A DNA stretch of 64,000 bases, from NCBI GenBank assembly GCA_947447985.1, contig CANFLX010000005.1:46820-110819 (forward strand), in the 5' to 3' direction. The position numbers and the translations under genes were made by a program. The notes beneath the pieces are model-generated. The model was not told the DNA's origin and made no database searches. It saw nothing but the letters and a program-made list of their open reading frames with translations. Shown here piece by piece: positions 46,190 through 49,660 of the stretch. The stretch's first letter is position 1; each line of letters starts with the position of its first letter. This stretch comes from Comamonadaceae bacterium. Lineage in GTDB: Bacteria; Pseudomonadota; Gammaproteobacteria; Burkholderiales; Burkholderiaceae_C.

Positions 46190-47128
46190 TCAGTGGCTGC
46201 GCTGAACGACCACGTCGGCCAGGCCCGCCAACGCGGCGGTGTTGGCCAAACCACTGGACCGCAAAGCAGAATGGGCCTGGGCGCGCAAATCCGTGGCCAG
46301 GCGCTGGCTGGCTTGCAGCCCCAACAAGGAAACATAAGTGGGTTTGTCATTGTCAGCGTCTTTGCCCGCTGTTTTGCCCAACGCGGCGGAATCCGCCGTG
46401 ACGTCCAGCACATCGTCCACCACCTGAAAGGCCAACCCGATGGCGTGACCATAGTCCGACAGCGCGGCCAGAACCGGCCCGGAGGCCTGTGCGCAAACCG
46501 CACCAAGCATGACGCTGGCATGCAAAAGGGCGCCGGTCTTGAGTTGGTGCATATGGCGCAAGGCAGGCTCGTCCAAGGGCAATCCCACACTCGCCAAGTC
46601 AATCGCCTGCCCTCCTGCCATGCCGGTGCTGCCCGCAGCGCGCGCCAACACGGCGCACAAGCGTCCCTGAACCGCCAAGGGCAGACTGCCGTCGTCCGGT
46701 GTGAGCAACTCAAAAGCCAGCGCTTGCAAAGCGTCACCCGCCAACAACGCGCCTGCCTCACCAAATTTCACATGGACGGTGGGTTTGCCCCTGCGCAGTA
46801 CATCGTTGTCCATGCAAGGCATGTCATCGTGCACCAAGGAGTAGGCGTGAATCAATTCGACGGCACAGGCAGCCCGCAAAGCGGCCTCGCCGCCCGACGC
46901 TTGCGCACCAGCGTCCACCGCCTCAAACGCGGCCAGTGTCAACAAGGGGCGCAGACGCTTGCCGCCGTCCAGCACCGCGTAACGCATCGCTTGCACCAGG
47001 CTGGCAGGTGCGCCCCAACCTAGCTTGGGGACCTTGGCATCGGTCACCCAGACGTCCAGTGCGCCTTCGACCCGCAGCAGTTGCGCCGACATCCAGGCGC
47101 CGAGAGAACCGTCAGACACCGCGGTCAT
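46190..47128 (-). CDS. ispA: Farnesyl diphosphate synthase / polyprenyl synthetase
   Basis: IspA builds FPP from IPP and DMAPP. The 312 residues contain [33 protein letters not shown] (first Asp-rich motif), KTGALL and QVVDDVLDV (second Asp-rich motif). The ATG overlaps the xseB stop (ATGA). The order xseB-ispA-dxs is a widespread proteobacterial operon. Confidence 0.96.
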
Positions 47129-47376
47129 GCGCTTTTCCAGGGCTTGAGCACCCCGTTGTCCAGCACTTTGATTTGGTTTTCCACCGCTTCAAGTTTGTCA
47201 CGGCACAGCTGCAGCAAGGCCGCGCCGCGCTCGTAGCTGGCCAGCAACTGGTCCAGGGGTAAATCACCCGACTCCATGCGCTGCACCAGGGCTTCGAGTT
47301 CCTGCATGGCCTGCTCGTAGTGTGCAGGCAAAGGTGCGGTTGAAGTCGCGGCGGAGGACGGAGGGGCCTTGGGCAT
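47125..47376 (-). CDS. xseB: Exodeoxyribonuclease VII small subunit
   Basis: This 83-residue protein matches Xse[48 protein letters not shown]. It is the small subunit of exonuclease VII, with XseA elsewhere. It opens the xseB-ispA-dxs run and is divergent from the Rieske gene with a 197-bp gap between them. Confidence 0.95.
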
Positions 47377-47466
47377 GGTGGGTGCCGCTTGGGGGCAAGC
47401 AGCGGTGGGTCAAATTGGGCGGGATTTTATGCCAGCGCCCTCCCAGAATACCCCTAGGGCGCGCAG

Positions 47467-47472
47467 TACAAT
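47467..47472 (+). promoter_or_regulatory. Putative -10 element (TACAAT) for the Rieske gene leader
   Basis: TACAAT lies about 107 bp upstream of the Rieske gene ATG and about 22 bp before the leader hairpin. A -35 is not clear. If it is used, the transcript would run directly into the terminator-type hairpin at 47489-47523. Confidence 0.35.
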
Positions 47473-47488
47473 CAGCGCCTATTCGCGA

Positions 47489-47523
47489 CCGGTCAACCGA
47501 ACAGGCTGACCGGGCTTTTTTTT
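47489..47523 (+). terminator. Terminator-type hairpin in the Rieske gene leader (possible attenuator)
   Basis: CCGGTCA pairs with TGACCGG over 7 bp around an 11-base loop and is followed by GC and eight T. It is on the plus strand only. Since xseB is divergent, no upstream plus-strand gene ends here. CTGACC of the right arm could instead pair with GGTCAG at 47562-47567, next to the start codon, which is the arrangement of an attenuator. Confidence 0.6.
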
Positions 47524-47573
47524 GGGCGCCCTGGGCGCATTCTCCCTGTGGGGAGTCTTTAGGTCAGGTTCCT

Positions 47574-48746
47574 ATGTCTGATTTAAGTCTTCAACTGCAG
47601 CAGGCTCTAAGCCAACTACCAGTTTCAAGCTACTTTGACCCGGCGCTGTATGCGCAGGAGATGAAAACCATCTTCCAATCCGGGCCGCGCTACGTCGGGC
47701 ATTCGCTGAGCGTGCCCCAGGTGGGCGACTACTACACCCTACCGCAGGAACAAGGCGGGCGCGTGCTGGTGCACAACGGCGGCGGCATTGAGCTCGTGTC
47801 CAACGTCTGCCGCCATCGCCAGGCGCTGATCCTGCAAGGACGCGGGTCCTTGAGTGATGGTCAAAACGCCAGTGGCAACATCGTCTGCCCACTGCACCGT
47901 TGGACCTACCAAGGGCCGCGGAGTGGCCCCGCGGCCGCACCGATTGGAAAGCTCATCGGCGCTCCCCATTTCGCCGCCGATCCCTGCCTCAACCTGAACA
48001 ACTACCCGCTGCAAGAGTGGAACGGCCTGCTGTTTGAAGGGGGTGGCGTGGACGTGGCCTCGCACATGGCGGGACTGGGGCCCCGCGCTGACCTGAATTT
48101 TGAGGGCTACGTGCTGGACCGCGTGGAAATGCACGAGTGCAACTACAACTGGAAAACCTTTATCGAGGTCTACCTGGAGGACTACCACGTCGGCCCCTTC
48201 CACCCCGGCCTGGGCAACTTTGTCACCTGCGAAGACCTGCGCTGGGAGTTCAAAGACCACTATTCGGTGCAAACCGTGGGTGCTGCCAACCGTCTGGGCA
48301 AGGCTGACGCGCGGGGCGGATCGCCCGCCTACGAGCGCTGGCAAAGCGCCCTGCTCAACTACCGAAACGGCGTGCCCCCCAAGTTCGGCGCCATCTGGCT
48401 CACCTACTACCCCCACACCATGGTCGAGTGGTACCCGCATGTGCTGACCGTGTCCACCCTGCACCCCATGGGCGTGGACAAAACCATGAACATGGTGGAG
48501 TTTTACTACCCCGAAGAAATTGCAGCCTTCGAGCGTGAATTTGTTGAGGCGCAGCAAGCGGCCTACATGGAGACCTGCGTGGAGGACGACGAAATCGCCG
48601 AGCGCATGGACGCCGGGCGCAAAGCACTGTTGCTGCGCGGTGACAACGAGGTTGGCCCCTACCAAAGCCCCATGGAAGACGGCATGCAGCATTTCCACGA
48701 GTGGTACCGCGCCCGCATGGCTGCTGCGGTGCAGGACGCTGGGTGA
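47574..48746 (+). CDS. Rieske-type aromatic ring-hydroxylating oxygenase, alpha subunit
   Basis: This 390-residue Rieske non-heme iron oxygenase subunit has the [2Fe-2S] ligands Cys79-x-His81 and Cys105-x2-His108 (VCRHRQ...VCPLHRW). The mononuclear iron site is in NYNWKTFIEVYLEDYHVGPFHPG, with His205 and His210 and acidic residues between. The overall size and a single-domain alpha-only layout fit the phenylpropionate/choline-monooxygenase-like branch. No ferredoxin or reductase gene is adjacent, so electrons must come from elsewhere. The substrate is unknown. The ATG at 47574 follows a 94-bp leader; the longer ORF start overlaps xseB. The stop is coupled (GTGA) to the EamA gene. Confidence 0.9.
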   Translation: MSDLSLQLQQALSQLPVSSYFDPALYAQEMKTIFQSGPRYVGHSLSVPQVGDYYTLPQEQGGRVLVHNGGGIELVSNVCRHRQALILQGRGSLSDGQNASGNIVCPLHRWTYQGPRSGPAAAPIGKLIGAPHFAADPCLNLNNYPLQEWNGLLFEGGGVDVASHMAGLGPRADLNFEGYVLDRVEMHECNYNWKTFIEVYLEDYHVGPFHPGLGNFVTCEDLRWEFKDHYSVQTVGAANRLGKADARGGSPAYERWQSALLNYRNGVPPKFGAIWLTYYPHTMVEWYPHVLTVSTLHPMGVDKTMNMVEFYYPEEIAAFEREFVEAQQAAYMETCVEDDEIAERMDAGRKALLLRGDNEVGPYQSPMEDGMQHFHEWYRARMAAAVQDAG

Positions 48747-49660
48747 CCCAGCCACAAGCGAGCGGCAACCTGGCCCCGGCACTGTGGATGGTGCTGGGTG
48801 CCTTCATTTTTGCCACCATGGCGGTGGGCATCAAAACCGCATCCCACAGCTTTGCCACTTTTGAGCTGGTGTTTTACCGCGGCGTGGTCGGCGTTGTTTT
48901 CATGGCCTTGTTGGTCAAGGCACGGGGCGCGAGTTTGCGCACACCGGTTCCCATGATGCACCTGACCCGCAGTGTGATCGGCGTGGCCTCGCTGGGCTCC
49001 TGGTTTTACGCCATCGCCCACTTGCCGCTGGCCACCGCCATGACGCTGAACTACATGAGCGGCGTGTGGGTTGCGGCCTTTATCCTGGGAGGCGCCCTGC
49101 TCTACGGCCAAGGCCTGCGCCAGGGCCCGCTGATGGGCACCGTGCTTTTGGGCTTTGCCGGTGTGGTGATGACCTTGCGCCCCACGATTGACCATGACCA
49201 GCTGTTTGCGGGTGTCATCGGCCTGCTCTCGGGCATGGGAGCCGCACTGGCTTATATGCAGGTCACCGCCTTGGGCAAGGCGGGCGAGCCTGAGGAACGC
49301 ACGGTTTTTTACTTTGCTGTGGGCACCTTGGTATTGGGTGGCGCCGGACTGGTTTTCACGCCCTTGACCCCTTGGGACCAGGTGCGTTTTGAAGACGCTG
49401 CCTGGGTAGTGCCGATTGGCGTGCTGGCCTCACTGGGCCAGTGGTGCATGACCCGGGCCTACCGCAAAGGCGCAACCCTGGTCGTGGCCAGCATGCAGTA
49501 CTCGGGCATTGTGTTTGCCAGCGCCTACAGCCTGCTTTTGTTTGGCGACCATATTGCGCCCATGGGATGGGCGGGTATTGCGGTCATCGTGGTCAGCGGC
49601 CTGTTGGCCACCTTGCTGCGTTCGCGCGCCATTCCCAACACCCCTGCCGAAGACCATTGA
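48743..49660 (+). CDS. EamA/DMT-family transporter
   Basis: The GTG at 48743 overlaps the Rieske gene stop (GTGA) and gives 305 residues with ten transmembrane segments in two EamA halves: LWMVLGAFIFATMAVGIKTASHSFATFELVFYRGVVG and the second half with WVVPIGVLASLGQWCMTRAYRKGATLVVASMQYSGIVFASAYSLLLFGD. DMT proteins export metabolites or amino acids; coupling to the oxygenase is positional inference only. Confidence 0.88.
   Translation: MTQPQASGNLAPALWMVLGAFIFATMAVGIKTASHSFATFELVFYRGVVGVVFMALLVKARGASLRTPVPMMHLTRSVIGVASLGSWFYAIAHLPLATAMTLNYMSGVWVAAFILGGALLYGQGLRQGPLMGTVLLGFAGVVMTLRPTIDHDQLFAGVIGLLSGMGAALAYMQVTALGKAGEPEERTVFYFAVGTLVLGGAGLVFTPLTPWDQVRFEDAAWVVPIGVLASLGQWCMTRAYRKGATLVVASMQYSGIVFASAYSLLLFGDHIAPMGWAGIAVIVVSGLLATLLRSRAIPNTPAEDH

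Follow-up and report, generated by a model that had tools for sequence, protein, structure and literature searches.

The leader of a Rieske oxygenase gene in a Comamonadaceae genome is proposed to consist of two layers, a promoter-proximal terminator and a translation-initiation element in the Rieske mRNA, a reading to which we give a little better than an even chance. In the window, by which we mean the whole 64,000-nucleotide stretch of DNA that was analysed, the parts of this leader have defined positions (Table 1), and across relatives they display conservation, compensating changes in a stem, frozen synonymous codons and linkage to one gene. A hairpin followed by a T-run had been the subject of a preliminary description of this DNA. 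As judged by the comparison of orthologous loci, a near-invariant element lying over the start codon, which that description did not contain, is a much stronger feature than the hairpin.

Table 1. Features of the Rieske leader and its neighbourhood (positions of the window)
Feature	Position	Strand	Remarks and basis
xseB, exonuclease VII small subunit, divergent neighbour	47125-47376	-	start codon at 47376; ORF and family assignment
TACAAT, -10-like, presumed Rieske gene promoter	47467-47472	+	read from sequence
Terminator hairpin	47489-47513	+	7 bp, 11-nt loop; left arm CCGGTCA 47489-47495, loop ACCGAACAGGC 47496-47506, right arm TGACCGG 47507-47513; sequence, fold, relatives
GC dinucleotide between hairpin and T8	47514-47515	+	read from sequence
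T8 tract of terminator	47516-47523	+	read from sequence
Small GC hairpin between T-run and near-invariant element	47526-47538	+	GCGCC-CTG-GGCGC; sequence and relatives
Near-invariant nucleotide element	47542-47605	+	leader, SD, ATG, codons 2-10; family comparison
P1 hairpin, opening the near-invariant element	47542-47555	+	CTCCC-TGTG-GGGAG; sequence and relatives
Predicted P2 hairpin	47558-47587	+	TTTAGGTCAGG / TCTGATTTAAG, SD region in stem, start codon in loop; fold prediction
GGTCAG, partner in proposed alternative pairing	47562-47567	+	read from sequence
Rieske oxygenase alpha-subunit-like gene	47574-48746	+	390 aa, ATG at 47574; GbcA-like, under family cut-off
EamA-family transporter gene	48701-49660	+	overlaps Rieske gene end; ORF and family assignment

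Hairpin and T-run downstream of the presumed promoter

The preliminary description had placed a 7-bp hairpin with a T8 tract on the plus strand between xseB and the Rieske gene, downstream of a TACAAT hexamer and without an upstream plus-strand gene to terminate. Each of these elements proved accurate on reading the sequence; the hairpin begins 16 nt past the hexamer between the two divergent genes, and the ORFs of the locus include no plus-strand gene upstream of it. The presumed Rieske promoter of the window matches a -10 but has a poor -35, no good one having been found, and the corresponding position is occupied by TACAAT or TATAAT in 106 of 136 non-redundant leaders of the window's type (type 1). 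On the xseB side, an ATTTTA-type motif adjoining this gene (47424-47436) is conserved in most relatives; it reads TAAAAT on the minus strand and probably serves the divergent xseB promoter as its -10.

Leaders were collected from genome samples of uneven make-up, namely from 93 of the 103 genomes of the window's genus, from contigs carrying the downstream element among the matches listed, and from sampled genomes of the GTDB family. Among the non-redundant type-1 leaders from Comamonadaceae and relatives (n = 145, more than 20% different upstream), a terminator is present in 102, compared with 13.8% of dinucleotide shuffles, its stem starting mostly 9-18 nt past the -10, and 100-102 of the 145 have a T-run after the stem. 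Covariation was measured by exchanging arms between genomes. Where a leader has both a -10 and a T-run (n = 100), a perfect 5-bp helix abuts the T-run in 68 cases; after the right arms had been swapped between genomes as a control, such a helix remained in 35 of 100 on average and in 47 at most. The stems encountered include CCGGC/GCCGG, CTGGC/GCCAG, CTGGG/CCCAG and TCAGC/GCTGA; since they vary across genomes and yet pair within each, the pairing is kept while the sequence drifts. The conservation and covariation of the hairpin in orthologous leaders, which the preliminary description had named as a check on its proposal, have thus been examined, and the hairpin passed.

In the window, the stretch of RNA between about 47479 and the end of the T8 tract (45 nt) folds with -16.4 kcal/mol (z = -3.0). 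A simple terminator scanner did not call this hairpin because of the limit that it sets on loop length. As expected of an intrinsic terminator in a leader, a GC-rich hairpin with a directly adjoining U-tract lies between promoter and start codon. Taken together, the sequence comparisons support a putative promoter-proximal intrinsic terminator in the Rieske leader that selection has maintained across many genera. Part of the type-1 leaders lack the T-run, among them many from the window's own genus, and in the other leader type of the family a terminator is found in 11 of 43 cases, near the shuffle rate of 12%; the terminator is therefore not required everywhere. Downstream of it, the small GC hairpin is retained with altered arms (GCGC/GCGC, GCAC/GTGC, CGCC/GGCG) in 77 of 136 leaders, the swapped-arm control giving a mean of 45 and a maximum of 58.

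The same hairpin might serve to stabilise the 5' end of the transcript against RNase E-type decay, with the T-run being secondary. Its position would suit this role, as the stem begins within about 3-11 nt of the inferred transcript start in most leaders, and some relatives, e.g. L400 and L402, keep a hairpin without a T-run. However, a T-run of at least six T in nine nucleotides adjoins the stem in far more type-1 leaders than coincidence would allow, and we regard stabilisation as an unlikely main function.

A near-invariant element at the start of the gene

The element has the consensus CTCCCTGTGGGGAGTCTTTAGGTCAGG-n-ATGTCTGATTTAAGTCTTCAACTGCAGCAGGC and is nearly identical in Acidovorax, Comamonas, Delftia, Curvibacter, Rhodoferax, Limnohabitans and others among the matches listed. 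Down to 78% identity it was found in 151 of 301 genomes of the GTDB family, representing 74 of 141 sampled genera, and nearly always as a single copy per genome of this sample. It is tied to one gene: in 78 of 80 fetched contig loci it lies at the start of the Rieske ORF, the remaining two loci stopping at the contig edge, and no occurrence at other genes or on plasmids was found in the fetched loci, the family sample and the plasmids searched. The Rieske protein itself is encoded by 290 of the 301 genomes compared with 151 for the element, so that about half of the family's Rieske orthologs are without it. Outside the family, a class sample of 274 genomes gave a marginal match only. In other genera, CCCCTTCATAGGGGGAGTCTCTAGGTCAGG replaces the first half of the element, P1 has the counterpart CCCC-TTCATA-GGGG, and the coding half is unchanged.

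The conservation extends into the gene at the level of synonymous codons. Codons 2-10 have a mean pairwise codon identity of 0.925 in 176 non-redundant genomes, compared with 0.504 (range 0.36-0.68) for 24 later conserved codons in the same genomes, and their GC3 is 0.38 versus 0.74. The distance from TCAG to ATG varies (6, 7, 8 or 9 nt), exactly between SD and ATG, and the upstream half can therefore not code in a fixed frame; an upstream reading frame was rejected as the reason for the conservation, as the ATG spacing shifts the frame. A conserved short upstream ORF, as a leader-peptide attenuator would have, was not found in the window's leader type, the sister clade alone having one. A second hairpin within the coding region (AACUG/CAGUU) was also considered and rejected, as it is not retained at codons 15-18.

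In the predicted folds the Shine-Dalgarno (SD) region has an unpaired probability of 0.04-0.18 and the A of the ATG one of 0.93 (mean over 87 leaders). An SD placed in a stem with the AUG in the loop suggests a control of translation initiation. P2, with AGGTCAGG / TCTGATT as arms, is almost invariant and offers little covariation; a few changes occur on one side only, e.g. GAUCAG for GGUCAG. The fold of the element alignment is weak, and the z-scores of the leader folds range from near zero to -1. Moreover, the native sequence ranks 132-623 among 2592 synonymous versions for SD pairing, and others fold P2 tighter. Structural stability was rejected as the reason for the frozen codons, since many synonymous versions fold equally well or better. 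Given the few compensating changes and these synonymous folds, it appears that the nucleotide sequence itself is recognised, and structure alone seems insufficient to explain the identity of the element.

Conservation of sequence rather than of structure would also be expected of a DNA site, i.e. an operator or another protein-binding site. This is improbable in our opinion, as the element lies downstream of the presumed start site, covers both SD and ATG over a length of about 60 nt, allows the spacer between SD and ATG to vary, and occurs essentially once per genome. As for an RNA element, Rfam has no family at this position at the curated cut-off and no weak match either, and no published description of the Rieske leader or the element was found in the literature searched. 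A search of the same genome for a trans-encoded complementary partner, using both halves of the element, returned the locus itself and otherwise matches at chance level only.

The element of about 60 bases is thus a candidate for a new gene-control element that belongs to no family of the RNA library searched. That so many bases stay nearly unchanged in more than 70 genera over the start of one single-copy gene means that something reads this nucleotide sequence. The identity of the partner would reveal the control of the oxygenase and might give a clue to its role. A more far-reaching version, which we put forward tentatively and would sooner doubt than assert, is that the element represents a new class of RNA control elements acting in cis, that a dedicated small molecule, protein or RNA recognises its sequence, and that it extends into the coding region so strongly as to freeze the codons, the Comamonadaceae having added a lineage-specific promoter-proximal terminator.

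Short RNA, alternative pairing and leader variants

A promoter-like hexamer followed by a terminator amounts to a complete short transcription unit, and the preliminary description had considered that a very short sRNA ends at the T8 tract. Such an RNA of about 45 nt may be released as a by-product, whereas a stand-alone function in trans is very unlikely: the stem and loop sequences drift freely across genomes, which argues against a trans-acting sRNA, and no conserved sequence was found in the mature short RNA. The region 47450-47523 has a weak full-length similarity to anti-hemB (Rfam RF02837), which speaks for an sRNA. This assignment was rejected, as the match scores 20.7 bits against a gathering score of 49.5 and its 5' part lies upstream of the -10; moreover, the true anti-hemB of this genome is located elsewhere, with 57.1 bits (G000, contig C41:12867-12952; L016, L062). 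As a separate observation, several members of the genus possess a second, weaker anti-hemB copy of 31-51 bits (L064-L070).

Conditional termination of the oxygenase gene had been proposed to depend on a classical attenuator, in which the right arm of the terminator (CTGACC) re-pairs with GGTCAG ahead of the ATG. While the leader terminator gained support from its frequency and the arm exchanges, this switch can hardly be credited. The six bases are indeed complementary in the window (CTGACC at 47506-47511, the first base of which falls in the hairpin loop), but no more than 2 of 248 orthologous leaders have CTGACC upstream, so that the pairing is due to chance, as the preliminary description had itself allowed. 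GGTCAG is situated about 50 nt 3' of the terminator arm and is therefore still to be transcribed while the polymerase is at the U-tract, too late to affect termination, and in the predicted whole-leader folds it pairs with the first codons of the gene. The switch was accordingly rejected as a conserved mechanism. The RNA 5' of the stem is so short, about 5-15 nt, that there is no room for a classical antiterminator, and no conserved antiterminator pairing competing with the terminator stem was found in the 248 leaders.

In the two-layer leader that we favour, transcription would start just past TACAAT, and the polymerase would meet the intrinsic terminator within about 45 nt, where a fraction of the polymerases would stop and release a very short RNA; those that read through would yield the Rieske mRNA. 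As no conserved antiterminator exists among the leaders compared, read-through would have to be either constitutive or governed by a protein or an elongation factor, and not by alternative RNA pairing. On the mRNA, the element of about 60 nt would fold with the SD region in a stem and the AUG in a loop, and would most likely control translation initiation via a sequence-specific partner acting in trans (protein, RNA or small molecule). The partial termination layer would be a feature of the Comamonadaceae, and the translation-initiation element would be family-wide. That transcription terminates here in the cell, that the gene is regulated in this way, and what kind of partner is involved are inferences.

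A sister clade that makes up about one third of the window's genus has a second, unrelated leader at the Rieske gene; a model of this leader gave 33 strong matches in the 103 genomes. This leader (L100-L133, e.g. L103, L110, L130) has a hairpin with the invariant loop UCUCRAGGUA, then a perfect terminator, and after it AGGACCGAG ahead of a GTG start. In the UCUCRAGGUA hairpin six pairs in two helices change on both sides, a result matched by 0 of 500 shuffles, and the leader is single copy and confined to these genomes. Past its terminator runs a short frame that is either joined to the gene or closes with ATGTCTGA, in overlap with the Rieske start. In the leaders L100, L102, L103, L107, L111, L112 and L115 this frame starts with VQ, usually VQ.LCK or VQ.MCK, and ends exactly at ATGTCTGA, and in sister genomes the VQ frame forms an N-terminal extension of the Rieske protein. 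The recurrence of a promoter-proximal terminator in an unrelated leader of this gene favours a functional role of termination there.

Two further arrangements were observed ahead of the Rieske gene. L398, L401 and L405 share another kind of leader before the ATG, TTGACATTGGTTTYTTGGAGA ... GGATCATG. L400, L402 and L403 have a long GC hairpin, CCCCCGCGG ... GGCGGGGG, directly past the -10 and without a T-run, followed by a AGGAGGTG motif far upstream of the Rieske start.

Comparison with known leaders

Riboswitches and RNA thermometers are cis-regulatory elements that hide the ribosome-binding site. The Rieske element resembles them by its predicted stem with the SD region and the AUG in the loop. 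It differs from them in that no covarying aptamer was found, that its conservation goes beyond the need of the stem, and that it is not in Rfam. The greA leader of E. coli reportedly gives rise to short leader RNAs by premature termination; the likeness consists in a terminator near the promoter and very short RNAs released ahead of the gene, whereas the greA leader belongs to a different gene and is without a start-codon element.

In the pyrG attenuator of Bacillus subtilis, attenuation is controlled at the start site by the repeated addition of G and without a long upstream antiterminator (PMC4448216). Leader attenuation without a long upstream antiterminator is common to both, but alignments read by eye revealed no conserved homopolymer run at the inferred start of the Rieske leaders. 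The rimP-leader and similar leaders carry terminators without a visible antiterminator, and control by an antitermination protein was inferred for them (Naville and Gautheret 2010, PMC2965389). Both the rimP-leader and the Rieske leader have a premature terminator with no visible antiterminator. In the rimP-leader, however, the sequence of the terminator stem is conserved, whereas in the Rieske leader the stem drifts and the conserved part is located downstream over the start codon. The Rieske leader may work like the class described by Naville and Gautheret while being, as far as tested, unrelated to it in sequence, and it is a test case for premature terminators lacking an antiterminator, which earlier surveys have noted yet left unexplained.
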